From the IMG/VR virus record IMGVR_UViG_3300050821_004356, positions 1 through 64,000 of that record: DNA of 64,000 nucleotides. One strand, written 5' to 3'. The notes beneath the pieces were generated by a model, which saw nothing but the letters and a program-made list of their open reading frames with translations, searched no databases and had not been told where the DNA came from. This document shows, in pieces, positions 192-16,924 of this stretch. Source of the stretch: a virus. The position numbers were made by a program, and so were the translations under genes. Positions within the stretch are counted from its first letter, which is position 1. Each line of letters opens with the position of its first letter.

Positions 192-221
192 GGCCTGCTA
201 TTCAATAAAGAAACTTCTTGA
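192..221 (+). CDS. Possible short 3' exon of the intron-split gene
   Basis: Just after the intron core, one frame reads G-L-L-F-N-K-E-T-S and then a stop (TGA at 219-221). If the intron ends here, it interrupts a gene within its last few codons. The 5' exon is outside the window, so the protein cannot be identified; a gene of the DNA packaging or head module is plausible from position. The exon border is inferred. Confidence 0.3.
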   Translation, partial: GLLFNKETS

Positions 222-246
222 CACGGGTTGCAACCTGTGTTAGGAT
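218..246 (+). promoter_or_regulatory. Sigma70-type promoter upstream of the GIY-YIG gene
   Basis: TTGACA (218-223), 17 bases, TAGGAT (241-246). The spacer carries the inverted repeat ACAC-GGTTGCAACC-GTGT (221-240, with mismatches). The -35 overlaps the presumed stop codon of the 3' exon. A start near 253 would place the terminator-like hairpin at 250-297 in the leader, so output could be attenuated. Confidence 0.6.
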
Positions 247-249
247 TAA

Positions 250-297
250 GAGTGGGGAAGTCTGCCTCTAACAGGCTTTCCCGACTCGCTCTTTTTT
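250..297 (+). terminator. Rho-independent terminator or leader hairpin
   Basis: The arms GAGTGGGGAAG (250-260) and CTTTCCCGACTC (276-287) pair almost perfectly and are followed by a run of six T (292-297). The hairpin directly precedes the ribosome binding site (AGAGGAG) of the homing endonuclease. It may end the upstream transcript and limit endonuclease expression. Confidence 0.7.
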
Positions 298-309
298 AGA
301 GGAGAGAAA

Positions 310-984
310 ATGCTAGTTTATTTAATCACGAATAAAAAGAACGGAAAGAAATATGTTGGTCAGCACGCAGGTAAAGACCTAGAGTCTTACTGGCGTCGAA
401 ACGTTTGGTTGGCAGAAACCGGGTACCAAGGTAAGCGTCTGTTATACAGAGCTATCCGTAAGTACGGCGCAGATGGTTTCGAAGTAGAGCCTCTTGTTAT
501 CGTTGGAACGAAACAAGAGATGGACTATTACGAGATTGGATTGATTAAGGTTTGGGACACAACCAATCCAGAAAAAGGTTATAATATCACGCATGGCGGC
601 GACGGGTCTTTGGGAGTTAAGATGAGTAAAGAGACTAGGGCTAAAATGTCCGAGTCGCGTACTGGTTTAATAATGCCTGAGAGTCATCGTCGTAAACTCT
701 CAGAACGCAATAAAGGTAACAAGTACGCTCTTGGTCGTAAAATGACCAAAGAGAATCACGAGAAATTGTTGGCTACTCACGTTGGTGCAAAACGTAGTGA
801 CGAAGCCAGAGAACGAATGCGACAGGCACAACTAGGCAAGAAACAATCCGAAGAAACAAAAGTAAAACGAGAGCCATCGTTGTTGAGAGGACGGCATACT
901 CGTTGGCATGTCAATCGCAACATCGTAAATCTCAAATGCCTACTCTGTAGGGAAGGAAGCAATAGCAATGTCATTCCACAATAG
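310..984 (+). CDS. GIY-YIG homing endonuclease with NUMOD3 repeats
   Basis: A 224-residue site-specific nuclease. The GIY-YIG module starts at the N-terminus, with YLI (residues 4-6) and KKYVGQ (about 13-18) as the two halves, followed by R/W/E residues typical of the fold. Residues ~98-180 carry several NUMOD3-type DNA-binding repeats built on SKETRAKMSES, PESHRRKLSE, TKENHEKL and SEETK. The C-terminus has the RWHVNRNIVN element often seen at the end of phage homing nucleases, with CLLC after it. AGAGGAG lies 6 bases before the ATG. The gene stands just downstream of the group I intron rather than inside it. Its end overlaps the next gene by 17 bases. Confidence 0.9.
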   Translation: MLVYLITNKKNGKKYVGQHAGKDLESYWRRNVWLAETGYQGKRLLYRAIRKYGADGFEVEPLVIVGTKQEMDYYEIGLIKVWDTTNPEKGYNITHGGDGSLGVKMSKETRAKMSESRTGLIMPESHRRKLSERNKGNKYALGRKMTKENHEKLLATHVGAKRSDEARERMRQAQLGKKQSEETKVKREPSLLRGRHTRWHVNRNIVNLKCLLCREGSNSNVIPQ

Positions 985-1678
985 ACACGTAGCCCCTGGC
1001 CAAAACACCGTAGACTTACGCAACACGCGCGCAGCCAAAGACGACGAAGAGTTGTTCACACACCACCACGATTTGCCTACTACCGAAGCGTCGGTACAGG
1101 AAATACTGGCGGGCGGCACCCCTGACTGGGTGAAGCGCCCACACGAGTTTAAAAATTTCGTTCGAGAGTCCTTCGCGCGCGAGAAAGAAATCAGCGACGA
1201 AATGGTGGAGAGATATAAGCTCGACGACCAAGAAGACCTTACGAACGCCAAGGCCCGCATGGTCAACCCGATGTCTACCGACGCGTTCATTAGAAAACTG
1301 AGAGTTAACGATATTTGCCCGATCAAATGCTTCACCGTTTACAACGGTCTTCAAGGCACAGTCGGGCTGTGGTGCATCCCGCCCAAGGTAACAGGTCGCG
1401 CTAGGTACGTGTGTTACGTACGAACGCCCGCTATGTACGAGTGGAGCCTTCTTTTACTCGACAAGCATAATTTACCAGCCGGTGAACTTCGCGGTTGGCG
1501 CACGGTCCTCGCCGAGCTAATCAAGAACGAAATCTTGACAGAGTGGCAGGCCCATCAGATTTTTGGAAATCCTTCCGAGAATAGTTGCTTCCGAAGGTAT
1601 CGTCAAACGTTGTGGGAACAACGCAACGGCAAACGATACACAGAGGATGAGCTAGCTAGTAAGGAAGTCCAAATGTAA
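968..1678 (+). CDS. Hypothetical protein, virion module
   Basis: A 236-residue protein that I do not recognise. It is charged and mixed alpha/beta with no signal peptide or membrane span. The C-terminus (RRYRQTLWEQRNGKRY) is basic and aromatic. The start follows AAGGAAG by 9 bases and lies inside the end of the homing endonuclease gene. Position between the intron-bearing gene and the tail genes suggests a structural or packaging-linked role, which is inference only. Confidence 0.75.
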   Translation: MSFHNRHVAPGQNTVDLRNTRAAKDDEELFTHHHDLPTTEASVQEILAGGTPDWVKRPHEFKNFVRESFAREKEISDEMVERYKLDDQEDLTNAKARMVNPMSTDAFIRKLRVNDICPIKCFTVYNGLQGTVGLWCIPPKVTGRARYVCYVRTPAMYEWSLLLLDKHNLPAGELRGWRTVLAELIKNEILTEWQAHQIFGNPSENSCFRRYRQTLWEQRNGKRYTEDELASKEVQM

Positions 1679-1684
1679 AGGTCA

Positions 1685-1744
1685 GTCGACGACCATCATC
1701 GTGTCGACAAAAATAAAACGGGTTGTGTACGCCAAAAGGTACAC
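1685..1744 (+). repeat. Two inverted repeats in the intergenic leader
   Basis: GTCGACGAC...GTGTCGAC (1685-1708) is followed by AAAAATAAAA. GTGTAC (1725-1730) pairs with GTACAC (1739-1744). They lie between two genes and upstream of a TAAGGAA ribosome binding site. The first could be a weak terminator and the second a leader hairpin. Confidence 0.45.
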
Positions 1745-1762
1745 GTAGTTAATAAGGAAAAT

Positions 1763-2440
1763 ATGTCAAACGTACAGAAACCGAAGTCAGTATTTGATCA
1801 GCTTGGAGAAGGTGTAGTGCCCGATGTTGAAGGCGTGCAAGCCGCACCAGCTACTCAAGCAGCAGTCGCAGGACAAACAGCGGCACCTGTCGCTGGTGTT
1901 GACGCGGGTGTACTCGGCCAACTCCTTCAGTATTTGATTTTGAAGGAAGGTCGGGAGGCACAAACGGCGCAAGAAGCCGAGAACCGTAACAAGATGCGTC
2001 AAGTACAACGTGATCGTAACGCCAAGGACTCAGATTCCAAGGCCTTGTTAAAGCAAGCGCGTTGTAAGCACTTGAAGGGCGGAAAGAAAGGTCCGAAGAC
2101 ACAGAACAAGGACTACGCGGTTTACCAACACAGGTTCATCGCGTTCACTACGTACATTCGATGCCGTATTTGCGGTATGAAGTGGTTCCCGAAGGATACA
2201 GTTGAGTATCTCGTCCGATTGGATAAACAAGAACGAGAACGTAAGATTTCAAATCACACTAAAATCGGATGGCGCGAAGCAGTCAATATGACTGACGCAT
2301 CTACCGATACTCAATCAGCATCGGAATCGATTCCGAACGTGGCACCGAACGCAACCAACATCGATCAATACGGCGCAGAATTTACCAGCCGTTTTGTCGA
2401 CAAGGAAACGGGCGAGACCATCGAAGGCGTACAAATCTAA
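1763..2440 (+). CDS. Hypothetical protein with a possible zinc site
   Basis: A 225-residue protein. The first ~60 residues are rich in Ala, Val and Gln. A charged stretch (about 70-100) leads to CKHLKGGKKG and, ~40 residues later, CRICGMKW; these Cys/His residues could bind one zinc. The C-terminus is Ser/Thr/Asn rich. ATG follows TAAGGAA. A terminator follows the gene, so it ends a transcription unit. Function unknown; head-associated or DNA-binding roles are both possible. Confidence 0.75.
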   Translation: MSNVQKPKSVFDQLGEGVVPDVEGVQAAPATQAAVAGQTAAPVAGVDAGVLGQLLQYLILKEGREAQTAQEAENRNKMRQVQRDRNAKDSDSKALLKQARCKHLKGGKKGPKTQNKDYAVYQHRFIAFTTYIRCRICGMKWFPKDTVEYLVRLDKQERERKISNHTKIGWREAVNMTDASTDTQSASESIPNVAPNATNIDQYGAEFTSRFVDKETGETIEGVQI

Positions 2441-2470
2441 AACAGGTTAACCTAGACCACAAGGTCCCGA

Positions 2471-2500
2471 GGGGCGGCGGTTCCCGCCCTATTCTTTTTT
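2471..2500 (+). terminator. Rho-independent terminator
   Basis: GGGCGG and CCGCCC form a GC-rich hairpin around CGGTT, followed by TATTCTTTTTT. It lies 30 bases after a stop codon and before a gene with its own start region, and should end the transcript of the 225-residue protein. Confidence 0.8.
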
Positions 2501-2598
2501 AAAATTTTCCAAAGGCACATGACCCTCAACTTCCTTCCAGAATTCCAACCCCCTTTTATTAGCGCGTCTGCCCAAATTTCTGCGCTAAAGGTGTTTTA

Positions 2599-3516
2599 GT
2601 GCCTGTCAAATTGGTATACACCGAACTTTACTACGATGATTTTCAACGACCGGATGAAAACCCTCTTGACCCGGCACGTTGGGTGGTTCCCCCGGTTGCG
2701 CCGGGAAATGATGAATTACAAATAGTAAACCACGAGGCTTGTACCACTAGACTTTATCAGGCTGACGGCCAAGAAGTTTTTCGACCCGCTCTTCCCGTCG
2801 ATCAATATTGTGAAATAGTTTTAGGAAACATCGTAAACTCCGACCTTCCGGGTCCTGTTCAGTATGAGAACATCCCTCTTCTCTATGTTCGTGCTGGATA
2901 TGCTCCTAATAATTTTGCGAATTTGACTCCGTGTTACGTGGCCTATTTATTTAACGACGCTAACGGAGTTGGTTGGTTGGATGTTTATCAAATAGATTTA
3001 GATATTTCAGTTCCATTCAATGTTGGACCCATTCAAGTGCCCACTTGGATTTGCGGAGACAAGTTCACCGTGGCAGTGGTCGGGAATTACGCTAGTGGAA
3101 ACATCTATGTGAGCAGAAACGGAGTGCTTATTCTAACTGTTCCGCTAAGCACCTCTCCAACTTATATTGACGCAGCGGTTACGCTTGGGAGAGCGGGACT
3201 TCAACTCTCGCAGACTGTTTCTTCGGACAATACCTCTCCTCCTACAAACACGGTGGATATTAGTATCACTCGGTGGGCGGCTGGAAGCGTTAACCTTGTT
3301 GATGTTCCGTCGAATTACAGTGTACCGGATTGTCGGGCTATAGCTCCCGCTCCAAACGCAAGTCGAAATGTTAACGGCACTTTAATTTACGATGCACAGA
3401 TATCCAGCAATCCAGCGGTTCCGAGCAAGGATAGTCGTGCTGCTGGAGTGCCAGTAGCATCGGGAACATATCCACAAAACAGCAGAGCACCGGGCGTGTA
3501 TGGCCCCGGAGAATAA
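2599..3516 (+). CDS. Putative virion decoration or receptor-binding protein (jelly-roll-like)
   Basis: A 305-residue protein starting with GTG after AAAGGTG. Residues ~1-235 look like a concanavalin-A/laminin-G type beta sandwich (YYDDFQR near the start, repeated beta strands, RNGVLILTVPL). Residues ~238-305 form a separate tail starting YSVPDCR and containing DSR, NSR and PGVYGPGE. This tail is shared with the next protein, which argues for a common attachment point on the particle. The last codons also supply the GGAGA ribosome binding site of the next gene. The role as surface decoration is inferred. Confidence 0.6.
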   Translation: MPVKLVYTELYYDDFQRPDENPLDPARWVVPPVAPGNDELQIVNHEACTTRLYQADGQEVFRPALPVDQYCEIVLGNIVNSDLPGPVQYENIPLLYVRAGYAPNNFANLTPCYVAYLFNDANGVGWLDVYQIDLDISVPFNVGPIQVPTWICGDKFTVAVVGNYASGNIYVSRNGVLILTVPLSTSPTYIDAAVTLGRAGLQLSQTVSSDNTSPPTNTVDISITRWAAGSVNLVDVPSNYSVPDCRAIAPAPNASRNVNGTLIYDAQISSNPAVPSKDSRAAGVPVASGTYPQNSRAPGVYGPGE

Positions 3517-3519
3517 TTT

Positions 3520-4401
3520 ATGAGTGTACGCACAGACGGCGTTTCAACCTATCTGACATCACCCGTAGCTGCGGTGTACAGTAGCCTCGCTAAATCAACT
3601 ATCTGCATGTGGGTTAAATGTCTGTCGTCTATTGCTGCTCTTGAGACTATACTAATAAAAGACCAAATCGTTGGTTCTCCGTGGTGCTTTGTTGAACCAA
3701 CAAACGCTATAGGCGCTGATGTTGATGATGACAGTCAAACAGCTTATCAGGTAGATTCTGCCAATAATACTATCACGCAGGGCATCTGGTTTCATTATGC
3801 TACGTCATACGACATGGTGGCTGGAGGCAAGATACAATTGTATCTAAATGGCGTTAATCTTAATGCCCTCAGCAATACAATACCACCCGGCTCGACTCCG
3901 TACGATGATTCAGCAAGCGGTTTTTCGATTGGTAATGGCGCTGGATTTCCTTTTAATGGCGAGTTATCGGATGTGCGCATCTACAATGCTGTGCTCTCTC
4001 CTTCGCAAATAGCATCCGTTGCGGCTGGCGGAACGCCAGCTTCTGCCAATTTGACAGCTTGGTGGAAGTTTTGTTCCGGTAATCTTTTAGCAGACAGTTC
4101 CGGAAATGGGAACACTTTGACGAATTTTGGGGCTGTCGCGGGCGCAACCCAACCACCGATTGATGTTTGCATAGCACCGCCGCCGTCTCTTCCATATTCT
4201 GTACCTGACTGTCGAGTTGCTCCATTCGGCCCCAATGCTAATCGTATAGTTCAAGGAACAAAGATTTACGATGTTCAAACGAGCGATAACGCAGCTATTC
4301 CGCCAGTGGATAGTCGTACATCAAAACCTGTTGATTCAAGAGTCGCGGCAAATATTCCGGAAAACAGCAGGACGCCCGGGATATATGGTCCAGGAGAGTA
4401 G
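3520..4401 (+). CDS. LamG-like virion protein
   Basis: A 293-residue protein. Residues ~1-160 match the laminin-G/concanavalin-A-like pattern: DGVSTYLTSP, ICMWVK, GIWFHYATSYD, IQLYLNG, FNGELSDVRIYN, ending LSPSQIASVAAGG. A WWKF strand with SSGNGNTLTNFG closes the sandwich (~178-200). The final ~70 residues repeat the C-terminal tag of the previous protein (YSVPDCR to PGIYGPGE). Such domains commonly bind glycans. The pair probably decorates head or tail. It starts 12 bases after a GGAGA within the preceding coding end. Confidence 0.65.
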   Translation: MSVRTDGVSTYLTSPVAAVYSSLAKSTICMWVKCLSSIAALETILIKDQIVGSPWCFVEPTNAIGADVDDDSQTAYQVDSANNTITQGIWFHYATSYDMVAGGKIQLYLNGVNLNALSNTIPPGSTPYDDSASGFSIGNGAGFPFNGELSDVRIYNAVLSPSQIASVAAGGTPASANLTAWWKFCSGNLLADSSGNGNTLTNFGAVAGATQPPIDVCIAPPPSLPYSVPDCRVAPFGPNANRIVQGTKIYDVQTSDNAAIPPVDSRTSKPVDSRVAANIPENSRTPGIYGPGE

Positions 4402-4404
4402 TTC

Positions 4405-5721
4405 ATGTCAAACAGTATTTCAGGCCAAGCCTTAGCGGGCGCAACGATCACTCTTAGCGGCACTGCGAGCGCCGTAACAACTGCGGGACCTACTGGCTTA
4501 TATAGCTTCGCAGGCCTGAACGCAGGTCCTTACATGGTCACACCAAGTAAACTAGGAATCAGATTCACTCCAGTTTCTACGAATGTGACTATTGTAGCGA
4601 TAAACATCTCTGGGGTAAATTTTTTAGGCCAACCAGTCGGAAGCCAGGGATCGACGTACACGATTCAAAATATTATTGACCGAGTAGTTTCATTCGGGGA
4701 TATCGAGCCCGTGCTAAACGTAGGCGGCACGTCGATGGAACCCGCGCTAACAATCGCTAATGATGTGTTTAACGAAATCTGCGCTACGCCTTTTCCTCAT
4801 AAATGGAACTCGGCCGATTTGCCTTTGTTCTACACTTGGTCTTGGCAGCAAGACTACGCGTTGGTGAATCCAGATGGCAGTTCGGTTTATGAATTTGAAT
4901 GGTTGGAACGTGGAATTGCGATTAACATTAGCAGCACGCAAGTACCGAAACCCTGGGTTCGCGTCGAGTGCGGGCGAAGCCTTCAAGCACGTACCGGGTC
5001 GTATACGATAACCAATAATGGCACTATGATGGGTGACCCAGGTTTCATCGTTTCGTCTTTCCCGAATAGTGAACTCTATTATGGTACTTGGGGACAACCC
5101 GATGTTTTAAGCTCGTCTTGGGGTAACAATCCTAAAGCGGGTTCTGTATATATTGGCCCGTTAGCGACGACCGCGATGCCCGCTAATCCTATCTCTCAAA
5201 TCATCGACGCAAACGGAAACCTTCTCGTAATCACGACGTTTGGCACCGAAGGCAGCGCTGCGCCGTTGGCACCAATTAGGGCCGTTCCAGGCACGCAGGT
5301 TTCGGGCTTAGGCGCAACTACAGTTTGGACGGTTGTTGATCCGAACGGCATGGGTATTCGTATCGTAGACGTTCCCACGCAAACGGGTGTTGTGTGGCAA
5401 TTCAATATTGTTGGCCAAATGGTGCCGCCGAAGTTTACTAGTCTTGATGATCTGTTAGCCCCATTGCCCGATAAGTACGAGCCTTTTTTCCGCGCGGGTT
5501 TCATAGCACAGTGCTACCGTTACTCTCCGGAAGCTAAAGTGCGCGCAAAGTTTAAAGAAGAGTGGCCGATGTGGAAGGCGTCTCTCACTGGTATGCGCAT
5601 TGCCCAAGATAGAGAATTGGAAGAGTATTCGTTTCTTCCTGACCGCACCGTGATGGGATCAGGTCGTAGCCGCAACACATTCAAGGGTGGCGCTTGGCCC
5701 TTCAATTACCCCGTTATCTAA
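4405..5721 (+). CDS. Head-tail adaptor-like protein with a Cna-B/carboxypeptidase-regulatory-like domain
   Basis: A 438-residue protein. Residues ~3-77 form an Ig-like domain of the carboxypeptidase-regulatory/SdrD type (SGQALAGATITLSG, TGLYSFAGLNAGPY, FTPVSTNVTI, GVNFLG). The rest begins YTIQNIIDRVVSFGD and ends with KFKEEWPMWKASLTG and SFLPDRTVMG, in the style of podovirus adaptor/tubular proteins. A carbohydrate-binding-like stretch sits at ~250-340. AGGAG within the previous gene serves as ribosome binding site. The assignment rests on gene order and pattern and is moderate. Confidence 0.55.
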   Translation: MSNSISGQALAGATITLSGTASAVTTAGPTGLYSFAGLNAGPYMVTPSKLGIRFTPVSTNVTIVAINISGVNFLGQPVGSQGSTYTIQNIIDRVVSFGDIEPVLNVGGTSMEPALTIANDVFNEICATPFPHKWNSADLPLFYTWSWQQDYALVNPDGSSVYEFEWLERGIAINISSTQVPKPWVRVECGRSLQARTGSYTITNNGTMMGDPGFIVSSFPNSELYYGTWGQPDVLSSSWGNNPKAGSVYIGPLATTAMPANPISQIIDANGNLLVITTFGTEGSAAPLAPIRAVPGTQVSGLGATTVWTVVDPNGMGIRIVDVPTQTGVVWQFNIVGQMVPPKFTSLDDLLAPLPDKYEPFFRAGFIAQCYRYSPEAKVRAKFKEEWPMWKASLTGMRIAQDRELEEYSFLPDRTVMGSGRSRNTFKGGAWPFNYPVI

Positions 5722-5731
5722 TTGATAAACT

Positions 5732-6679
5732 ATGTATACACTAACACAAAGTATTAATTGGTCCCAAGCTTTTTACGAGTACGCGCCTGTGACTGCGGGA
5801 CTCGGTCAAGAACCAGCAGTATCAACTGCGAATATGATTCGCGATACGCTGACTGGGCCGCCGATGACGTGGCCTTGGAATCGTGCCGTATTTCAGCTAG
5901 ATGCCCCGACGACCGTAGGTGAACAAGATTACCCAGTTCCACTGTCTTCTATTCCGGATTTTGGGTTTTTAGAAAAGGTTACGCTTACTGAAACAACAGG
6001 TGCGAACACTGGAAAAGTTTGGGAAATCAAAGACATCTACAATAACTTATCGATGTCACGAGACGCAGATAAACAACGCCCGAACTCAGCTTGCGTTTTC
6101 ACATTGTCGAGTACCCAACTGCTTTTGCGTTTCATCGGTGTACCGAATGCTGCGTATACGGTAACCTTGATATATCAAAAAAGGCCGGTTATGTTTGGTC
6201 CTTATATTATCTCGGCAGCCGGTAACGAATCTGCAGGAGACACGGTATACACAGGTACGTTTGATCCATTAGCATTTCCAGATGGGGCTGTTGCACAAAT
6301 CACTGGGTTCAAAACGAACATCGTAAACAATGGTTCGTTTGTCGTGGTTAATTGCACGGCGACAGCGCTTACTGTTGTTAACGCAGCTGGCGTAGCAGAA
6401 ACAATTACGGCGTACGCGAATAACTTTGATTGGGGTCCGATTCCGGACAGTTACCAAGATATTTACAATAATCTGTTTTTGAGCGAGATGTTCGCTGTCG
6501 AAGACGATGCTCGATCTCAAACGTATCGTCAACGTGGTATTGCAGCCTTTTTGTCCAAGGCCGAAGGTCTTACGCAGCTACAGCGTAACGCGTTTGTCCA
6601 GCAGTGGCTTGCAAGAGGTATTGAGTCAGCATCGTCAGCACAAACGGCTCAACTAGGAAGTCAGGCTCGCGGAGTCTAA
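5732..6679 (+). CDS. Adaptor/tail-tubular-like protein with an inserted beta module
   Basis: A 315-residue protein. The N-terminal (~1-170) and C-terminal (~230-315) segments resemble tail tubular/adaptor proteins: YPVPLSSIPDFGFLEKV, VTLIYQKRPV, IPDSYQDIYNNLFLSEM and an Arg/Gln-rich helix. Residues ~171-229 are a beta module (DTVYTGTF, ITGF, VNNGSFVVV, LTVVNAAGVAET) that also occurs three times in the next protein. There is no clear Shine-Dalgarno before the ATG. It lies between the other adaptor and the nozzle-like protein. Confidence 0.55.
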   Translation: MYTLTQSINWSQAFYEYAPVTAGLGQEPAVSTANMIRDTLTGPPMTWPWNRAVFQLDAPTTVGEQDYPVPLSSIPDFGFLEKVTLTETTGANTGKVWEIKDIYNNLSMSRDADKQRPNSACVFTLSSTQLLLRFIGVPNAAYTVTLIYQKRPVMFGPYIISAAGNESAGDTVYTGTFDPLAFPDGAVAQITGFKTNIVNNGSFVVVNCTATALTVVNAAGVAETITAYANNFDWGPIPDSYQDIYNNLFLSEMFAVEDDARSQTYRQRGIAAFLSKAEGLTQLQRNAFVQQWLARGIESASSAQTAQLGSQARGV

Positions 6680-6686
6680 GGAATAA

Positions 6687-9600
6687 ATGGCAAGTCTTCT
6701 CGAACAGAGCGGCGGTCAGCCACAGAAACAACCACGCTACGCGAGTGTTTTCAACTCTAGGTTTTTTACCGGCCTTTACACTCAGCGTGCGGCGCTACAC
6801 TCTGCGGCAGATATATACACTGAGAGATTTTACGGCGGTCGTCCTGAAGCTTTATGGTTAGGCGCGAACGTGGAACTTTCTAATAACTTCACTCTCAAAC
6901 GTCGCCCAGGCCTATCTCCGTTTCGTACCGGTGGCATAAGTTTCGGTATAGCGGGAGTACAGCTAGGTACGGCTGGACTTTACGCCGCGCTCGGATATTC
7001 CGGCATCACGAACACGGGTAATACGGTTATCTCTGGCGGAAATATTGGTAGCTTTCCCACGAACTCTATCTCCGGTTTCCCACCTGGCACTTTCGTTCCT
7101 CCTGCGGCCTATGTAACCGCTACCGCCCAAAACCAGACGGACTTGACTGCGGCTTTTGTTTTCTTCAACGGCCTAACACCAGTTCCAATCGGTGGCTCGT
7201 TTGGGACAACGACTTTCACCGCTACGGCTACAGGTTATAACGGCGCACCCGGTTTTGTCGGCGCTGCTTCTAGCACGCTTCATTTCACAGGCGGTACCGT
7301 AACTCTCGATGGCGCAGGTTTATCGAATCCTGTGTTCGTTTTCCAAGTCGGATCGGCTCTGAATGTCGATACGGCCGCAACTACCATCAATTTGATTAAC
7401 GGGGCATCGGCGGTCAACGTAGTTTGGGTTGTTGGGAGCGCGACTACATTTGACGCCCACACACACATTTGGGCTGGCAATATTCTCGCAACGTCAGGCA
7501 TCACTCTTAACGGTGGCACACTGACTGGTCGTGCCCTTGTCACGACAGGCCCTGTTACGATTTCATCCGCTACCAATATCAACATGCCCACGGTTCCGTT
7601 CGGACCCCAACCTGGTGGCGGTCCAGGGAATGGCTATATATACCCGACACAACCGTTAACTGCGTATTCTTTCCAATTGATTGACGGGACAATTCGCGTC
7701 ATCATCGACACTGGCTCGACAGGGCCGTCCGAATCAGATACGATCACGTCGGTGGCCGCGTCAGTAAACGGTCAAGCGGTTTACACAGGCTCATTTACTA
7801 GTGGCGCAAACAACGGCCTTCAAGGCCAATCAGTAACAGTCGCGGGTTTCACGAATAGTTCGAACAACGGCGTATTCGCGGTATTTCAGTCAACTGCTAC
7901 AACGTTAACTCTCGTGAACGCGAGTGCGATTAGTGAGTCGCACGCCGCAACAGCTGCGACAATATTCTTGACGTCCGTCGCTGCTGCGAGCGGTACAGGT
8001 GGCCCTGGTGGGACTGCGACGACCGTTTACACTGGAACGATTACCAATGGTGCGCCTACTGTATCATCGCCAAACGGAGCCTATGCTGGTCTGATATTTT
8101 TGATTTCTGGATTCGGTAACGGTGCTAATAAAGGCGCGTTTGTTTGTGTTGCGTCGACGAATACAACTCTTACTCTCGCTAATCCTAATGGCTTAATGGA
8201 AACAGCGAACGGTACTGCTGTTAGCGCGGGTGCCGTATATTGGGACCAACAGAACGGCAACGCGCAGTTACTGTTTGCTAAGTCTCCTGGTGCTGGTCAA
8301 ACACACTTTATCGGTTCTGGAGGCATTTTATTCTTCGGGGACGGCGTCGATGTCAAAAAATACACACCACTAAACGTTAACTTCCCCACAGGGAGCACGG
8401 TATCTGTTTGGAACTGGGGTATCACAGCGCCCGCTGCTCAACCAGGTATTCAAATTGTTTCTAGCGGTGCTGCGTCTACAGTGTGGCAAGCCAATACCAT
8501 TTTCTCCACGATGGGTCTAACGTATGATGCCACGAACCATCAAGTATGGCAATTGATCGGCGTCAACGCAGACCCGACAAATCCTAATATCACAAACGCT
8601 CAATTTGGAACTTCTGGTACCGGTGGCCCACCTTGGAACCAATCTTTATACGGCACGACCACTGAAACAACCGGTCTTACTTGGCAGAACGTCGGGCAAC
8701 TTGCCCCGTGGGCTCCGAGCTTTGTCTACGGAGATGCTGGCGTTAATGGAACAGCTGCACCGGTAGTTGTTTATGATTCTACCACAAGCGCCGTTTATTT
8801 GAACTTTAACGGTGGCGGCGGATTAAGTCGCAGCGGAACTGTAAAGCCGCCGTTCACTCCGACGGCTGGTTGGAACTACACCGAACAAAACGGTGCCGGT
8901 GGAACTAGCGGCGGCATAACATATAACCAGCCGCACTGGTTTTTCTTTTGCACATACGCGCAAGCCCAGGCTTGGAAGCCGTCTCATAGTTATTCGAATT
9001 GGTACGTAACGGGTGTTCCATTAGGTACTGGCGCTCGTGCTGTAGCCAACGTGGCGTTTGAACCTTTTATTTTTCCGCCTCCGACCGTTGGTTTGAATGG
9101 TAATCCTCCTACTGCGGTTTATTTACAAGTTCCGACTTCGACGGGCACGTCTGGTAGCACGTATACGCCGTTCCCAGCTGTTCCACTAAACGTGGGTCAA
9201 CAGCAAACGGATGGCCAGCTTTTGTGGCAGAACGTGAGCACGCCGTTCGGCGGCGCGCTAAGTGGCGTGTGGCATGCGTCAACAACGTACGTTCCTTGGA
9301 CAATTTCAGGCGCAGCCTTCGGCGTAATTTTTGACGGCACAAATTTACAAGTTGTGACTAAGACAAAGTCCGGCGGCCCAGATTTAAGTGGCACGGTTGC
9401 CCCTGGTACGACAATCGCGGCCGCTGTAACTACCACCGTCGCTGCAAGCACTCCATTGAGTGGAGAGGCTACATACACGTTGAGCACCGGAAGTTGGGTA
9501 AACAACCCACCACCTAATAGCTACGTAACATTCACGGGTTTTACAAATGCCGGGAACAACGGTACTTTCCAAGTTGTTTCGTCAACGAATAATTCGGTTG

Positions 9601-11516
9601 TTGTGTCTAACGCAGCGGCCGTAAACGAGACGCATACGCAAACAGCTGTTTTGAATGCTTGGGGAACAACTTATGGTGCGACTACTCAAGACGGTAATCT
9701 TACTTGGACTTGTGTAGGGCCTTCGGTTACGTGGACTGCCTCGACCATTTGGAACTTGCCATTGGTGGGTTTTGCTCCTCCACAACTAACTCAACCGTAT
9801 GGCGGGTCGTCTGTCGACGCTGCAAACGGGACGGTACAAGCTGTCATCGTTTCTGGTAAGTCGGCGTCATCCGGCCCACCCGCGTTTGGTGTTGTTGGAA
9901 CGACGACGATGGAAGGGCCATCTTCGCCGCAGCTAACATGGTATGCCGAATCTTTAGCTAGTACGAACTCTTTAGCATTTACGAAAGGGTATTCGTGGGC
10001 ATACAGCTACAAGGCCCGCGCGCTAGATGATATCTATTCTGCGCCCCCTTTAGGCGGTATTGACGGCGTGCAGCAAATTCCACCAGGTACTACACAGACG
10101 CTACCTGCGCCATTTGGCTCAGAAACTAACGCCGTGTCATCCGCGTCTCCAGCAAACGTGACGGTAGGGTCAAACGCAGGCGCTGTAATCACTGTTAGTG
10201 GCGTTTATTCAAGCGATCCACAAGTTGATACGATTATTATTTGGAGATCAGTCGACGGTGGTGGATCAAGTCAGATGTTTGAATTGACAGAAATTCCGAA
10301 CGTTGTTGGTGGCGGCGTGTGGCACTTCCAAGATTTTTTGCCTGATATCGCCAACGGAATATATCCCGGATTAAACACGTTGATCCCTGCGCCAATCAAT
10401 GGTGTTAACGATCCACCTGTGTCAACGTTCTTGCCTCAAGTTTATCACTTCCAGCGTATATTTGGAATAGACGGGCAGTTCGTAGCGTTCTCTGGCGGTC
10501 CAGACACACACGTCGGCAATCCCGACGAAGCTTTTTCTGCGGTAGATTCGTTGCCGTTTTTGGCACCAGTCAATCGCGTGGTAAAATCCGCACAAGGTCT
10601 TTTTACCTTTTTAACAAATAGCATCGAGTTCATAGGTGGCGGCCCCGCAACGTCGTCGTTCTCATCTATAACGGCCGCTCCGGGAATAGGCTTGTTAAGT
10701 TGGAACGCCCTCGACGTGTTCGCAGGCGAAATTTACTTCTTCTCGGCAGATAACCAATTCCGTGTTATGACGCCTTCGTTGAATATCACAAACGCGGGAT
10801 TTCCGATTGGGGATCAGTTCGCTAACCAGCCTACATCGGGCGCGATGTCGAGCGGGGTTAATATGACGTGGGACCCGAAGCAGGTATATGTAGCGTCATA
10901 TCAGAACGGTACCGATAACGCCATTTTTGTCGGCGATGGCAATACCGGTTGGTATAGATTGAACCCCCGCCAAGCTGGGGCGATGCCCAATACCGAGCCT
11001 GTATGGTCTCCGTACGCTATAATTACCAACGGTTGCCAAATGGTTGTGTCTGTGAATACTTCACAAGGCATTAGTCAGTTGTTGGTCGGACCACAACTTC
11101 AAAATCAAACCATCTTGGTTCGCAACCAACTTGTTTTTACCGATAACGGGACACAATATGATGCATTTTTTGAAATGGGTAACATCGTGTTGGTCAACCA
11201 AGGACAAATAGCGGCTTTGAAATTCTGCGCTTTTGATTTTAGCAACGTGAGTTTCCAACCGACGGTGAGCTATTTGTTGAATGAGATTGCAGGTAACTTC
11301 GTTCAATTTACTTTAAATCCAGTGTTTGATCCACCGTCTCTATACGGACAAACGATAACCCCAGGGTCTTATTCCCCCAACAGGTATTATTTCTCAGGCA
11401 CAGGTTCTTTGGCTCGCTGCCGACACTTACGTATTCGAGTTGATTACGGCAAGACGTCAATCGGTGATGAGATTTTTAATACTAATATTTTCGGACGCTT
11501 GTTCACAGAGGCATAA
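6687..11516 (+). CDS. Giant tail nozzle-like protein carrying a DUF3494 ice-binding-like domain
   Basis: A 1609-residue tail protein. Residues ~1-95 (FNSRFFTGLYTQRAAL, NVELSNNFTLKRRPGL) and ~1230-1609 (FQRIFGIDGQFVAFSGGP, VKSAQGLFTFLTNSIEF, MTWDPKQVYVASY, NTGWYRLNP) look like the two ends of a beta-propeller nozzle. Between them are inserts. Residues ~97-302 match DUF3494 (ice-binding/IBP-1-type solenoid): ITNTGNTVISG, SISGFPPGT, PVFVFQVGSAL, ILATSGITLNGGTLTGRAL. Three copies of a ~60-residue beta module lie at ~361-425, ~445-515 and ~925-988. Further Trp/Tyr-rich repeats (GLTWQNVG, QLLWQNV, GNLTWTCVG) fill ~590-1030. The nozzle call is inferred from order; the DUF3494 match is by motif reading. 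Confidence 0.75.
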   Translation: MASLLEQSGGQPQKQPRYASVFNSRFFTGLYTQRAALHSAADIYTERFYGGRPEALWLGANVELSNNFTLKRRPGLSPFRTGGISFGIAGVQLGTAGLYAALGYSGITNTGNTVISGGNIGSFPTNSISGFPPGTFVPPAAYVTATAQNQTDLTAAFVFFNGLTPVPIGGSFGTTTFTATATGYNGAPGFVGAASSTLHFTGGTVTLDGAGLSNPVFVFQVGSALNVDTAATTINLINGASAVNVVWVVGSATTFDAHTHIWAGNILATSGITLNGGTLTGRALVTTGPVTISSATNINMPTVPFGPQPGGGPGNGYIYPTQPLTAYSFQLIDGTIRVIIDTGSTGPSESDTITSVAASVNGQAVYTGSFTSGANNGLQGQSVTVAGFTNSSNNGVFAVFQSTATTLTLVNASAISESHAATAATIFLTSVAAASGTGGPGGTATTVYTGTITNGAPTVSSPNGAYAGLIFLISGFGNGANKGAFVCVASTNTTLTLANPNGLMETANGTAVSAGAVYWDQQNGNAQLLFAKSPGAGQTHFIGSGGILFFGDGVDVKKYTPLNVNFPTGSTVSVWNWGITAPAAQPGIQIVSSGAASTVWQANTIFSTMGLTYDATNHQVWQLIGVNADPTNPNITNAQFGTSGTGGPPWNQSLYGTTTETTGLTWQNVGQLAPWAPSFVYGDAGVNGTAAPVVVYDSTTSAVYLNFNGGGGLSRSGTVKPPFTPTAGWNYTEQNGAGGTSGGITYNQPHWFFFCTYAQAQAWKPSHSYSNWYVTGVPLGTGARAVANVAFEPFIFPPPTVGLNGNPPTAVYLQVPTSTGTSGSTYTPFPAVPLNVGQQQTDGQLLWQNVSTPFGGALSGVWHASTTYVPWTISGAAFGVIFDGTNLQVVTKTKSGGPDLSGTVAPGTTIAAAVTTTVAASTPLSGEATYTLSTGSWVNNPPPNSYVTFTGFTNAGNNGTFQVVSSTNNSVVVSNAAAVNETHTQTAVLNAWGTTYGATTQDGNLTWTCVGPSVTWTASTIWNLPLVGFAPPQLTQPYGGSSVDAANGTVQAVIVSGKSASSGPPAFGVVGTTTMEGPSSPQLTWYAESLASTNSLAFTKGYSWAYSYKARALDDIYSAPPLGGIDGVQQIPPGTTQTLPAPFGSETNAVSSASPANVTVGSNAGAVITVSGVYSSDPQVDTIIIWRSVDGGGSSQMFELTEIPNVVGGGVWHFQDFLPDIANGIYPGLNTLIPAPINGVNDPPVSTFLPQVYHFQRIFGIDGQFVAFSGGPDTHVGNPDEAFSAVDSLPFLAPVNRVVKSAQGLFTFLTNSIEFIGGGPATSSFSSITAAPGIGLLSWNALDVFAGEIYFFSADNQFRVMTPSLNITNAGFPIGDQFANQPTSGAMSSGVNMTWDPKQVYVASYQNGTDNAIFVGDGNTGWYRLNPRQAGAMPNTEPVWSPYAIITNGCQMVVSVNTSQGISQLLVGPQLQNQTILVRNQLVFTDNGTQYDAFFEMGNIVLVNQGQIAALKFCAFDFSNVSFQPTVSYLLNEIAGNFVQFTLNPVFDPPSLYGQTITPGSYSPNRYYFSGTGSLARCRHLRIRVDYGKTSIGDEIFNTNIFGRLFTEA

Positions 11517-11525
11517 AGGTATATA

Positions 11526-13364
11526 GTGGCAGATAATTCACCATCTATAAACGAAGAGGCAGGGCTTGGCCCAAACTGGAAGCCTATTGATGCGCCACCC
11601 ATAACTGGACGGCCAAGTCCACCATCAATTGGTGATATAACGCCCGTGATTCCGCAGTATTTCCAAGGTTCAATCGATCCGTCAATTCAGCACGACGTGA
11701 ACTTTGTAAACACGGCTCTTAGATCAACGAGCGCTCCTAGATTCGCTTTGATGCCTCCGGGAGTACAAAGCGTCGCGCTGACTTCTGCGCAAATTACAAG
11801 CGTAGCTAGTAGTGCTGCCTCTGCAGGTACAGGTCCCGGTCAGGGTGGCAGCGGCGGTGGTGGCGGAACAGGCGGCTCGGACTCTGATCAGATAACACTG
11901 GATATTCCGAGTATATTTACCCCTGTAACCCAAACGGTTACTTTGCCTGGGCCTTTAGAGTTTACGTTGGCTCCTGAGCCCGCCGGAACTGTTTTTTCTG
12001 GCCCCACCAACGCAGCTGTTGGTTTCGATGGCGCGTTCTTCAACACTGCGGCATCTTCTGGGGCGGGGAGTCTTACTGTTATTGGGGGAGTCCCGTCCAA
12101 TCCCAGCGGAGAGTATGCAGTTTATATTGCGGCGGGCGGGAATATCGCTGGTGCCCTTACTTTTACAGGTGCTCCTGCGGGATGGACCGTGCTCGGAGAA
12201 TCAACTGGCGTAAGTCCAGAGTATGCGATAGCGGTCCCTTCAACGGGCGTATCTGCTGTCGACACTTGGGCCGCTGGTCCGTCGGAAGCAAGTGGCATGA
12301 TCGTATACTTGAACGGCGCGTTACCATCGCTTTCTAATTTTGCTGCTGCGACACCGGGTAACACCTCCGTCTCTAAAGCATTAACGGGCATGACGGTTGG
12401 TAACAGTATTTTGGTTTTGTGTCATTGCACTCTACGCTTTTCAGTCGTCAGTGGAGTGCTATCGGATTCTCAAGGAAATACACCGATTTTACTCGGTACG
12501 GTGGGACAACCTTTTGGTGTCGGCGGCTCTATATTCGGATCACAGGTCTTCGTATACCTGATTCCTGCCGTATCGGCTGCCTCTGATACAGTGACTTTCT
12601 CTGTATCGCCAGCAAGTACATCGAACTCTTTGCGCATGGCTTTGTATGAGATTCCGCCTTCGAGCGCGATTGCGGCTATCCCTAGATTTCAGTTGCCGCC
12701 TCCTCCAAACGTTAGTAACGTCACTGGAATCTTATCTCCAGCGAACGGTGGGACGGGCGCGAATTTATCAACCACGGGTGGTCCTTCCGAAGTTGTAATG
12801 CAGACTACGGTGGGTGGTGCCTTTACGGTAGCGCAGTTAGCGGCGTCTGATTTGAGTAACGGAACCACAGGTAGTGGCGCGATTGTATTGTCCAATTCTC
12901 CCACGCTAGCAGGTAGCGTTATATTCACTGGTAAAATTACAAGTTACAACAATCTTGCCACCGTGAGTAACGGCATCCCGGAAGAAATCGCTACCATTGA
13001 TTTAATCAATCAAGCAGCCGCAATTACCCCTACGACACTATACGTGGTTACGGCGGGTCGCCCAGGTATGTATCGAATCTCTTGGGTCGCGACAGTGACT
13101 CAAGCGGACGCCGTGTCTTCTACTCTGGGACCTTTTCAGATTTTATATACTGATTTCGACACATCCGTGGTTAAAACTATGCCGGGAACGGTCGTGGCTG
13201 GCGTAGACAGCAACACTACGAACAGTACATCAACAGGAACTATTTCGGGATGCTTCATCGCCTACGTCGCGGCGTCCACCACCATTCAATATCAGATGGG
13301 CTATACGTCAGGTGTAACGCCCATGCAATACAACCTACATATAAAAGCCGAGTTACTAGGATGA
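11526..13364 (+). CDS. Tail fibre protein
   Basis: A 612-residue protein starting with GTG after AAAGG. The N-terminus (~1-60) is Pro-rich and probably docks to the tail. A Gly-rich linker (~100-120) follows. Residues ~125-390 are beta-rich with a surface-protein pattern. Residues ~395-470 contain SPANGGTGANLST, AQLAASDLSNGTTGSGAIVLSNSPTL, split here as two elements, which are typical phage fibre repeats. The C-terminal ~110 residues form a TNF/C1q-like beta head (MYRISWVATVTQ, IQYQMGYTSG). The stop overlaps the next start (ATGA). Confidence 0.75.
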   Translation: MADNSPSINEEAGLGPNWKPIDAPPITGRPSPPSIGDITPVIPQYFQGSIDPSIQHDVNFVNTALRSTSAPRFALMPPGVQSVALTSAQITSVASSAASAGTGPGQGGSGGGGGTGGSDSDQITLDIPSIFTPVTQTVTLPGPLEFTLAPEPAGTVFSGPTNAAVGFDGAFFNTAASSGAGSLTVIGGVPSNPSGEYAVYIAAGGNIAGALTFTGAPAGWTVLGESTGVSPEYAIAVPSTGVSAVDTWAAGPSEASGMIVYLNGALPSLSNFAAATPGNTSVSKALTGMTVGNSILVLCHCTLRFSVVSGVLSDSQGNTPILLGTVGQPFGVGGSIFGSQVFVYLIPAVSAASDTVTFSVSPASTSNSLRMALYEIPPSSAIAAIPRFQLPPPPNVSNVTGILSPANGGTGANLSTTGGPSEVVMQTTVGGAFTVAQLAASDLSNGTTGSGAIVLSNSPTLAGSVIFTGKITSYNNLATVSNGIPEEIATIDLINQAAAITPTTLYVVTAGRPGMYRISWVATVTQADAVSSTLGPFQILYTDFDTSVVKTMPGTVVAGVDSNTTNSTSTGTISGCFIAYVAASTTIQYQMGYTSGVTPMQYNLHIKAELLG

Positions 13365-13792
13365 TAAGACTGACTGAAACAACCCAATCGGATATAGAAC
13401 AAATTCGAGAGTGGCTCGCCTGCGATCCTTGGCACAAGGATGATTCACGAAACGTTCCCGAACTTATGACGACAGGCAACGGTTTACTTTCTTATTGTTT
13501 GCAAGATGATGAAGGACCGATAGCATACGTTAAACTTACTGAGGAAGGTGAGTTGGTTCGAATCGCTATGCAGTTCGGGCCACAAGAAGAGGTTAGTAAA
13601 AAGCGTTTAGCAGTAGGCTTAGCCGAAGTAGGTATTCCGATTATCAAGGTATTCGCGTTAGAAAATGGATTCAAAGGTTTAGTATACGAGTCTATAAGTC
13701 CGAAGTTAATATTCTTTTGTGAAAAACTAGGTTTTAAAAGCGTAGGTAACGATGACTACGCGATGCTTTTTGGGGAAAATAAAAATGTGTGA
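13361..13792 (+). CDS. GNAT-type acetyltransferase-like protein
   Basis: A 143-residue protein with the N-acetyltransferase layout: strand RLTETTQSDIEQIREWL, central PIAYVKLTEEGELVRIAMQF, a helix with KKRLAVGLAEVG, and a C-terminal SPKLIFFCEKLGFKSVGNDDYAML that fits the GNAT beta6-alpha4-beta7 end. The usual R/Q-x-x-G-x-G/A acetyl-CoA loop is not clear. It starts at the ATG overlapping the fibre stop; a longer upstream reading lies inside the fibre gene and is not used. It may modify a virion or host protein. Its place between fibre and internal proteins is unusual. Confidence 0.55.
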   Translation: MIRLTETTQSDIEQIREWLACDPWHKDDSRNVPELMTTGNGLLSYCLQDDEGPIAYVKLTEEGELVRIAMQFGPQEEVSKKRLAVGLAEVGIPIIKVFALENGFKGLVYESISPKLIFFCEKLGFKSVGNDDYAMLFGENKNV

Positions 13793-14516
13793 TCTTTTCG
13801 GGGGACCGAGCGAGGGAGAAACAACCTCCTACGATAACCAAGTAGGTATAACGAACTCAATGCGTTCTGCGTTTAACCAGCAATACGGCCAGCAACAAGG
13901 CGTGTTGGGACAGCTTAACGCACAGATCATGCGTATTCAGTCCGGACAAACAGGCCCTGGTTACGGCGGCGCTGAAAACGCGTCCAATATCGCGTTGATT
14001 CAAAATCAGGGCGCAGCACAAGCTCGCAATGCCATCCAAGCAGAACGTACACAGTCAGCCGGTGTCGGCGGTGGCGGGACAAGCGGTTTGGCTCGTTCAG
14101 CAGCTATTAACCGTCAGATTTCCGGTGGTATCGAAGCTTTGGCAGGCGCAAATACATCAAATCAATTAATCGGTGAACAAGCGGCGAATTACGCCCAAGG
14201 TCGTGCGAGTGCTCAGTCTGCCGTACAAGGTTTTCAAGCGCTCGCGGGAGACTATAATCCACTAGGGTATGCAAACGCATCAAGCAGTAGCAACCAGGCA
14301 CAGTTTGGTCAAGCCGATAAAATTAATCAACAGAAGATCGCAGCAAGTCAAGCAGAACTCGGCATGATTGAGAAGGGTGCAGCAACGGTGGCAACCGCTG
14401 GTGCGGGTGGTTTTGCCGCATTAGGTGGTGGAGAAAGTTTTGGCGAAGGTCTTTCGGACTTCGCGTCAGGGGCTTCCAATGCCACGTTTGGAACTAACTT
14501 TGGTATCAACGGATAA
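13785..14516 (+). CDS. Putative internal virion protein
   Basis: A 243-residue protein that begins MCDLFGGPSEG and is rich in Ala, Gln, Gly and Ser, with long predicted helices (residues ~20-60, 85-180) and a Gly-rich end. This composition and the position before two larger helical proteins fit the first internal/ejection protein of podoviruses. No catalytic motif is seen. The start overlaps the previous gene by 8 bases. Confidence 0.55.
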   Translation: MCDLFGGPSEGETTSYDNQVGITNSMRSAFNQQYGQQQGVLGQLNAQIMRIQSGQTGPGYGGAENASNIALIQNQGAAQARNAIQAERTQSAGVGGGGTSGLARSAAINRQISGGIEALAGANTSNQLIGEQAANYAQGRASAQSAVQGFQALAGDYNPLGYANASSSSNQAQFGQADKINQQKIAASQAELGMIEKGAATVATAGAGGFAALGGGESFGEGLSDFASGASNATFGTNFGING

Positions 14517-14521
14517 GTGAA

Positions 14522-16924
14522 ATGAATACGCCACCACAAACTGAACAAGACGGATACCAACAGCTGTCGAACGCTGTCGGACCTAATCCTGCGCCAGCTA
14601 TTCCGAATTTGGACATCGCGAACTCGATGGTTGCGACACCAGGTGGTATCCTGTTGCCGCCTCAACAAGCTCCTGCGTCTTCGGCCGCACCAACCGCTCC
14701 CGGAGCAACAAGTTCGACGAATGCTGCACCCGCGCGCGACTGGCACACACAGCTAGGGGCCGCTGCACAGAAACTCATGATCGGAGGTATGGACCCGTTG
14801 AACGCATTGGTAGCTGGCGGCGTCCACGCCCTTGCTAATCTTAACAAAACAGCGCCTAGCGATACGCCTGCGCCTAGCAACACGACCTGGGATGCTGCGC
14901 AATCAAACACTGATGCAACGCAGCCGACTACTGCACCGCGCCCGCAACCATCAAACGCCAACAAAGTTATCCACGGAGTTGAGGCTAATTTGGGTGATCT
15001 CGCATCAGCCACAGAAGGCGGCACCGCAGGTGGTCCTATTGCGGGCGCATTTCGTGTTGCGAAAGCATCTACAACCCGCCAACGCGAAGAGCAAGAAAAC
15101 AATATCAAAATGGCTACTTCGAACGCGGCTATGCTTCACGAGCAACAGCTGCTCCACAAGACTGGTGAAGACGCCGTTCAAGCATCGTTGGCAATAGGCA
15201 AGCAATCTGCGGATGAAATGTTAGCGGCCCCGCACGCTGAAACTATTGCATCAGGAAAAAACTCAGATGAAATTAAGAAAATGATCGATAGTAAGGTACT
15301 CGACCCGTCCAAAGATGCAATATTCTTGACAGGTCGTGTTCTAACTGGTACCGATCAAAACGGTTTGCCGACATATCGTTCGACTTATTCTGTAATCAAA
15401 CCAGGCGACCGCATCCACCCTAGTCAAGAAAATATAGATTTTTTGAACAAATACCTCCCAGGTCAAGATTTCAAGGGGCCTGAAGACGTAGAAGAAGGTA
15501 AAGAAGGTCAGTCGTTCGACTCACACACATACTACATGCTGAATCAGCGCGCAATGAACCGCTTCGCAGATATGCAAGCTATCGCGAAGACCTCGGCAGA
15601 GACCGAAGACAAGGTACATAAGGCCTTACTTGAAAAAGGAAGCCAGGAACTCAGTGGCAATCAATACGTACAAGCCGCCATTCGTGATGTTCCTCCAGTT
15701 AAAGGCGGCGATCCGTTTTTGTTCCAAAAGGCATTCAACATTTTGGCTCGCGAAGCTGCGCTCGATCCAAATATTGCAAAGCAACTTCCTAAGAATTGGC
15801 AACAACAGTTCGCTTATACTTATGGCGGCGGCGAAACTAAGAAGTTCGAAGACCAGATGACGCAGTTAAGCAAGCTGCAAGAGAAGGCTCAAGATACTCA
15901 AAACGACATGTTGGATATCGCGATGAACAAGCCGCAAGAGATGGAGGGCCATACGCCCGCGTTTCAAGCAGCTTTAACCAAGATAGCAAATGACGCGGCC
16001 CAACCTCCCGAGAGACGCCAGAAAGCCACCGAGCTTTTAGGTGTAGTCAAAGACATTCGAGACGGTGAAGTACAAATAGAAAAAGATAAAGCTGCCGGTA
16101 AGAAACAAGCGGAAACAGGTTTTGTTGGCGATCCTACCGCCACAACTCCGGAAGGGTTTTTAAATAGTCTTACGCCGTCAGAACAGTCGCTTGTAAAACA
16201 AATAGGAACTGGAAAAATAACACTGTCTCGTATGGATTATTTGGTTTCTCGCAAGCCAGAAGTACTTGAGGCGGTCGGAAAGGCATTCCCGGATTTCGAT
16301 TCGTCGAAGGCAGGAAGCTATCCAGCTACTTATAAAGATTTCACGTCTGGAAAGACAGCCACAGCTTTGAATGCAGGTGGCACGGCTATGGGTCACTTGA
16401 AAGAGTTATATGACCTTAACACCCCTATGAGCCATATACCTCATACACCTGCGTGGACAGCGTATCAAAACAAGGCCGATACCCTGGCGACAGAGTTGGC
16501 TAAGTTTTATGGGGACGCGACAATCCCCGCTATTGCTGCGATTAAGGAAACACTAACATCTACGTTGCCTGGTAACAGAGAATCAGCCATCAAGACTCAG
16601 GCTCAATCTATGAACGATAAGTTAGAGTCCTTTGAACAACAGTGGAAGAACGCGGCACCAAGCAAAGCTTATGAAGCACCGCTTCCGTTCATTTCTCCAC
16701 AAGCAAAGAAAGCTTTCGCCAGTTTGAATCCGATATACGCTGCTGCCCATCCAGAATTAAACACTGGAAACCAACAACAGGATCAACAAACACAGTCGCA
16801 AACTCAAGCCACTCCATCGCAAACAGCTGGCGGGGGCGTGATTGTAAATACACCAGACGGGCCTGTTTCATTCAAAACTCAACAACTAGCAGACGCGTTT
16901 AGACTTAAACACGGACTAAAATAA
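14522..16924 (+). CDS. Putative internal virion (ejection) protein
   Basis: An 800-residue, mostly helical protein. Residues ~1-150 are low-complexity Pro/Ala/Thr/Asn. A long helical region (~180-620) contains coiled-coil-like runs (QREEQENNIKMATSN, KKFEDQMTQLSKLQEKAQ). Residues ~600-770 have a more globular look (GTAMGHLKELYDLN, WTAYQNKADTLATELAKFYG). The C-terminus ends in FRLKHGLK. It sits directly before the giant polyvalent protein, as expected for ejection proteins. No transglycosylase motif was recognised. Confidence 0.6.
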   Translation: MNTPPQTEQDGYQQLSNAVGPNPAPAIPNLDIANSMVATPGGILLPPQQAPASSAAPTAPGATSSTNAAPARDWHTQLGAAAQKLMIGGMDPLNALVAGGVHALANLNKTAPSDTPAPSNTTWDAAQSNTDATQPTTAPRPQPSNANKVIHGVEANLGDLASATEGGTAGGPIAGAFRVAKASTTRQREEQENNIKMATSNAAMLHEQQLLHKTGEDAVQASLAIGKQSADEMLAAPHAETIASGKNSDEIKKMIDSKVLDPSKDAIFLTGRVLTGTDQNGLPTYRSTYSVIKPGDRIHPSQENIDFLNKYLPGQDFKGPEDVEEGKEGQSFDSHTYYMLNQRAMNRFADMQAIAKTSAETEDKVHKALLEKGSQELSGNQYVQAAIRDVPPVKGGDPFLFQKAFNILAREAALDPNIAKQLPKNWQQQFAYTYGGGETKKFEDQMTQLSKLQEKAQDTQNDMLDIAMNKPQEMEGHTPAFQAALTKIANDAAQPPERRQKATELLGVVKDIRDGEVQIEKDKAAGKKQAETGFVGDPTATTPEGFLNSLTPSEQSLVKQIGTGKITLSRMDYLVSRKPEVLEAVGKAFPDFDSSKAGSYPATYKDFTSGKTATALNAGGTAMGHLKELYDLNTPMSHIPHTPAWTAYQNKADTLATELAKFYGDATIPAIAAIKETLTSTLPGNRESAIKTQAQSMNDKLESFEQQWKNAAPSKAYEAPLPFISPQAKKAFASLNPIYAAAHPELNTGNQQQDQQTQSQTQATPSQTAGGGVIVNTPDGPVSFKTQQLADAFRLKHGLK

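Follow-up and report, generated by a model that had tools for sequence, protein, structure and literature searches.

The window analysed here (bases 1–64,000 of a 111,567-base IMG/VR virus record) contains a single, intact open reading frame for a 1609-aa tail protein (Table 1), into which a domain with, almost certainly, the DUF3494 fold of ice-binding proteins has been inserted. We propose that tailed phages captured the DUF3494 beta-solenoid and have since exchanged it as a display module among their virion proteins, the copy described here being a putative autonomous insert in a tail-protein loop of a Tunturi 3-related podovirus. The domain would be exposed on the particle and, less certainly, a Ser/Ala-x-Thr ladder on its B-face would order water as it does in ice-binding proteins. 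Particles could thereby cling to ice, or to the interface of ice and unfrozen water, in freezing soil, and such attachment could retain virions near surviving hosts and limit freeze-thaw damage. We regard this proposal as a whole, from capture through exchange to adhesion of particles to ice, as evenly balanced between right and wrong, and its parts differ considerably in strength.

The identity of the domain is the firmest part. A Pfam search of the 1609-aa protein matched PF11999 (Ice_binding) as the sole family, with 2–206 of the 208 profile positions aligned at 100 bits (E=1.9e-28), well above the curated cut-off of 28.7 bits, and a search of 14 control genomes with the same profile gave zero matches. 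A sequence search of the PDB gave significant E-values to ice-binding proteins only (5UYT, 3e-17; 7BWX, 4e-16; 6EIO, 1e-15). The AlphaFold2 model of residues 91–307, computed with 66 phage relatives in the input, has a mean pLDDT of 95.7 and a pTM of 0.92 and forms a capped beta-solenoid with a helix at residues 147–161. Foldseek matches this model to 31 PDB chains at E≤0.001, all of them DUF3494-type ice-binding or antifreeze proteins, the best being the ice-binding protein 6EIO (TM 0.83, E=7e-13), and the predicted structure has the discontinuous beta-solenoid braced by a helix that characterises the DUF3494 fold. A chance low-complexity match can be ruled out because of the E-value, the empty controls and the confident fold. 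The original prediction was of a complete DUF3494 beta solenoid embedded in a phage tail protein instead of being encoded by a separate gene, and it named a PF11999 profile search and a structure prediction as its checks; the profile match at residues 102–296, the presence of both the solenoid and its capping helix, and the position of the domain inside an intact reading frame all bear it out.

It had also been supposed that the domain replaces a loop of the tail protein, and here alignment with domain-free orthologues leads to a correction. A scan using the last 388 residues of the tail protein identified three orthologues (L096, L097 and L098) with 54–55% aa identity, and PF11999 searches of their records gave zero matches; L096 and the tail protein are 43% identical across residues 422–1603. 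The segments that flank the domain in the window, RRPGLSPFRT (to T81) and YPTQPLTAYSFQ (from Y319), are fused directly as RRPGLSLFSTTTYPTPPDYTFAFPQ in the aligned L096 and L097, the junction being RRPGLSPFRT/.../YPTQP in the window and RRPGLSLFSTT/YPTPP in the domain-free orthologues. The orthologues thus join the equivalent of residue 81 to that of residue ~319, which makes the domain an insertion and not the substitute for a loop. Its location varies within the family: L003 and L004 have it at the same site as in the window, L045 and L084 have it between ...LLLGP and ...RN/RD, close to the C-terminus (equivalent to approximately window residues 1468–1490), and in L055 it occupies another loop, ahead of TGWYRLNPRQ. 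These alignments show one tail-protein family to include an empty state and three insertion sites.

The tail protein gene follows a series of virion genes, in the order SU10-type portal, major head protein, SU10-adaptor and tail homologues, and then the 1609-aa tail gene. The terminase (phrog_38, E=5e-38), the SU10-type portal (E=2.5e-16) and the major head protein (E=1e-7) are encoded at the other end of the record, and the head genes at record positions 96001–111567 (L015) continue into the tail genes at window positions 1–16924, a layout that is consistent with a circularly permuted genome. The sole cultured match to the tail-protein family is gp19 of Tunturiibacter phage Tunturi_3 (PP885686), which aligns with 97% of the C-terminal L096 query at 34% identity, and is 43% and 33% identical to the window protein over residues 1–81 and 1150–1609 respectively. 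Tunturi_3 gp19 lacks the DUF3494 domain, but the gene order matches, with the window genes starting at 4405, 5732, 6687, 13250 and 13752 collinear with Tunturi_3 genes 12, 13, 19, 22 and 23. Tunturi 3 is a podovirus isolated on the tundra acidobacterium Tunturiibacter psychrotolerans from Finnish tundra meadow soil in the Arctic, and its relatives include contigs from Stordalen peat permafrost (PMC11924767). On the strength of this relationship we think it somewhat probable that the window phage also infects Acidobacteriota and inhabits cold soil. The earlier description of the tail protein as nozzle-like fits the gene order, but remains unproven because the model of the tail core (residues 851–1609) is poor (pLDDT 42.7) and the cultured homologue is annotated as a 'head decoration protein'.

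Table 1. Coordinates of the DUF3494-bearing tail protein, its parts and related features (window positions unless marked as record positions).
Feature	Coordinates	Strand	Basis or remarks
SU10-adaptor-type protein	4405..5721	+	Tunturi_3 gp12 homologue
Tail protein with one ~70-residue YTG module	5732..6679	+	Tunturi_3 gp13 homologue
YTG module in the neighbouring tail protein (5732..6679)	6215-6418		
Tail protein, 1609 aa, bearer of the inserted domain	6687..11516	+	Tunturi_3 gp19 homologue
Inserted segment, ~237 residues (82-318)	6930..7640	+	Absent from the L096, L097, L098 and Tunturi_3 orthologues
DUF3494 / PF11999 Ice_binding domain, residues 102-296	6990..7574	+	Pfam E=1.9e-28, AlphaFold2, Foldseek
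Predicted solenoid capping alpha helix, residues 147-161 (model residues 57-71)	7125..7169	+	AlphaFold2 model
B-face S251-A252-T253-T254	7437..7448	+	PDB-search alignment; S251 and T254 align with AnpIBP S153 and T156
YTG module copy 1 in tail protein, residues 355-423	7749..7955	+	E=8e-29
YTG module copy 2 in tail protein, residues 440-511	8004..8219	+	E=2e-24
YTG module copy 3 in tail protein, residues 919-987	9441..9647	+	E=6e-27
Second DUF3494 protein, 357 aa, begins directly with the domain	record 92339-93412		

Several neighbouring genes contain small modules of their own. At its N-terminus the SU10-adaptor-type protein bears an additional CarboxypepD_reg-like (Ig-like) domain (residues 6–73, window 4420–4623), which is absent from Tunturi_3 gp12 and would be a further decoration of this virion. 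The adjoining genes at 2599–3516 and 3520–4401 code for proteins that share a C-terminal tail of ~65 residues (SVPDCR...PENSR.PGIYGPGE), which is perhaps a virion anchor, and one of the two has a LamG/ConA-like lectin domain (E=1.7e-17). The YTG module is a beta-rich segment of ~70 residues (VYTGTF...GF.N..NNGTF...TTLTL.NA.G..ET) with no Pfam match; 37 related loci, some of them overlapping, have 88 copies of it spread over 56 ORFs, and it constitutes a second shuffled virion module.

The DUF3494 domain itself is widely distributed among phage proteins. An alignment-based scan of IMG/VR viral contigs found 101 relatives and 80 of these were retained; with the full window protein added and truncated and bacterial rows dropped, phage-type DUF3494 is found in 71 distinct phage-contig proteins. 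With the domain masked, grouping by similarity at E≤1e-10 over 60 aa sorts these into at least 25 groups that share no detectable similarity outside the domain, the count being a minimum because shared small modules fuse some of the groups. Inspection of the sequences shows that the bearers include a tail-fibre-like protein of 577 aa, a tailspike-like protein of 1160 aa with a pectate-lyase-type start, a protein of 2098 aa that has five putative Ig repeats, and another of 1712 aa that has an fn3 domain. Individual virus records have as many as six copies (G006), with five in G004 and three in each of G002 and G013. Three loci (L062, L067 and L082) encode two DUF3494 domains within one protein of 824–837 aa, and L082 has a third in a neighbouring ORF. 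The record studied here has a second DUF3494 match outside the window, at record positions 92388–92939, scoring 125 bits in the record scan versus 104 bits for the window copy, and the gene that follows it encodes a collagen-like, tail-fibre-like protein.

A domain that is present or absent among orthologues, sits in differing loops, and recurs in unrelated virion-type proteins has the behaviour of a shuffled module. It might nonetheless serve long virion proteins only as a structural spacer or stabiliser, with no particular ligand, as could be supposed from its insertion near other small beta modules (YTG) and from its dispensability, there being orthologues that lack it. However, the bearer proteins function without the domain, and the surface columns of one of its faces are conserved over 67 copies in unrelated proteins, which a spacer does not need, and we consider this role improbable. 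As to how the module moves, many neighbours of the domain genes in loci L003–L094 encode HNH, homing or endonuclease VII proteins, but endonucleases are also frequent among the control genes of those loci, without clear enrichment next to the domain genes, and mobility driven by homing endonucleases is therefore not claimed.

Signal peptides distinguish the phage proteins from their cellular relatives. As called by a simple heuristic they are present in five of 72 phage-contig proteins and convincing in two (L057 and L085), whereas 25 of 28 cellular rows have Sec signals and two of the three that lack them are truncated. No signal peptide was found in either the tail protein or the second-copy protein, both of which thus differ from the secreted microbial ice-binding proteins. 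This bears on the suggestion that the domain belongs to an auxiliary gene guarding the infected host from freezing, the interpretation given to PF11999 in three Arctic vOTUs (PMC11515562). As far as the available text of that paper and of PMC8407431, which notes one antifreeze protein in Southern Ocean viruses, extends, the genes are treated as auxiliary and concerned with host cryoprotection, and a location in the virion is not proposed. These polar marine viral contigs encode the same Pfam family (PMC11515562) or the same general class of protein (PMC8407431). A cryoprotectant of this type would be a stand-alone secreted protein, and we reject the suggestion as very improbable for the window gene, given that its DUF3494 domain forms part of a 1609-aa tail protein without a secretion signal.

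Phylogenetic comparison also sets the phage copies apart. A maximum-likelihood tree separates all 67 phage copies from 22 proteobacterial copies by one branch (support 100/95), and the same branch holds after addition of five ice-binding sequences of solved structure (support 99/89). A single capture by phages is likely, within a cellular sample drawn from one phylum and the PDB. Taking together the insertion, the at least 25 kinds of bearer protein, the scarcity of Sec signals, and the one-sided tree, we conclude on sequence grounds that the domain is in all probability a mobile virion-display module and not a host cryoprotection gene; tool results and genomic context together make it very probable that DUF3494 is displayed on the virion.

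What the displayed domain binds is less clear-cut, and the evidence comes principally from its B-face, whose positions were assigned from the alternation of strand residues and the column scheme of AnpIBP (7BWX), not from coordinates. In AnpIBP the B-face substitutions S153Y and T156Y bring thermal hysteresis down to 17% (PMC7277481). The position equivalent to S251 is Ser in 63 of the 67 phage copies and that equivalent to T254 is Thr in 64 of them. For the eight B-face positions that point outward across four rungs, the commonest residue has a mean frequency of 0.83 versus 0.68 for all columns, a level reached by 328 of 20,000 random column sets with core positions included. The window copy itself is less regular; its columns 2 and 4 read P-T, G-T, A-T and A-N, with T-H on the bottom rung, and although Thr occupies column 4 in three of the five rungs, Pro289, Asn226 and His199 interrupt the pattern, at sites where the other phage copies have mostly Ala, Thr/Asn or hydrophobic residues. 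The second copy in the record has a complete ladder of A-T, S-T, S-T and T-T, very close to the A-T, S-T, S-S and T-T of 6EIO. A survey of 50,669 DUF3494 sequences associates Ala in column 2 with pure-ice habitats and Ser, Gly or Thr with sediment and rock, and reports that the family is also present in ice-free habitats, and that sequences from rock and sediment likewise often have Thr on this face (PMC12337378). Column 2 of the phage family is mostly of the sediment and rock sort.

The ice-binding face thus appears to be preserved in kind, but with Pro, Asn and His on its B-face and a column 2 that in the phage family is mostly of the sediment and rock sort, the window copy may bind weakly or have another target. 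Ice binding by the domain is plausible but unproven, and we would put ice as its main target at slightly less than an even chance. The original prediction suggested that particles might gather at ice or brine surfaces; retention of the AnpIBP B-face positions agrees with this, whereas the three interrupting residues do not, and the nearest named relatives are from tundra soil, not sea ice. That prediction also raised a host surface adhesin or glycan as the target, either of which the domain may bind. A broader possibility, which we hold to be appreciable if the less probable, is that DUF3494 is a general virion adhesive for a host glycan, an extracellular polymer or soil particles. Its presence in tail-fibre-like and tailspike-like proteins would suit such a role, as would the lectin-like (LamG), collagen-like and Ig-type modules alongside it in the same phage, the additional bulky or polar residues on the B-face of the window copy, and the description of DUF3494 from ice-free habitats and in proteins for surface adhesion and substrate binding (PMC12337378). 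However, conservation on the surface is highest in the Ser/Ala-x-Thr ladder at the known ice-binding face, which would be odd for a binder of diverse glycans, and the profile for the ice-binding-like adhesive family (PF20597) gave no match at E≤0.1, nor at E≤0.01 in a second Pfam search.

The domain has the fold and belongs to the sequence family of the type 1 ice-binding proteins EfcIBP (6EIO), AnpIBP (7BWX) and IBPv (5UYT), but the phage copies form their own branch, and the window copy differs in lying inside a tail protein without a Sec signal and in the Pro, Asn and His residues of its B-face. Among viruses, the only DUF3494 folds in the BFVD viral-protein library are three from Hyperionvirus, which is a giant virus and not a tailed phage. 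A tblastn search of 50,697 phage records (INPHARED) with two phage-type and one cellular DUF3494 sequence gave zero matches; homologues in Synechococcus phage S-SKS1 are mentioned in PMC11515562 and were not recovered at tblastn sensitivity. No paper pairing DUF3494 with a phage, and no published phage virion DUF3494, was found in the open-access literature searched. The earlier statement that no phage virion ice-binder had been described therefore stands for that literature, the 50,697 phage records and BFVD.

A parallel may be the Ig-like domains of phages, which are likewise optional modules found in different loops of many unrelated virion proteins, and which are held to retain phages in mucus. 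The fold is different and the proposed target is ice and not mucin glycans. By this analogy, phages of freezing soils could wear DUF3494 as shuffled ice-adhesion modules, an 'adherence to ice' counterpart of mucus adherence, an idea that we offer tentatively and think a little more doubtful than not. Should the domain bind ice, we would know of no earlier ice-binding module borne by a virion, and phages would gain a physical tie to the interface of ice and unfrozen water in the soils of tundra and permafrost. With a target other than ice, it would still represent a widely shuffled display domain of soil phages defined by its fold. In either case DUF3494 genes on viral contigs, so far annotated as host cryoprotection, would need a different interpretation, and the cultured relative growing on tundra Acidobacteriota offers an entry point for experiments.

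Two other parts of the window are of some interest. A single ORF of 2822 aa (window 16925–25393) closes the virion block, and no similarity was detected between it and the unannotated 1070-aa gp25 at the matching place in Tunturi_3. Further to the right, a minus-strand block (40958–49901) contains genes that, by reading of their products, resemble glycosyltransferases, an NDP-sugar epimerase/dehydratase and an aminotransferase, and may encode a phage sugar pathway.
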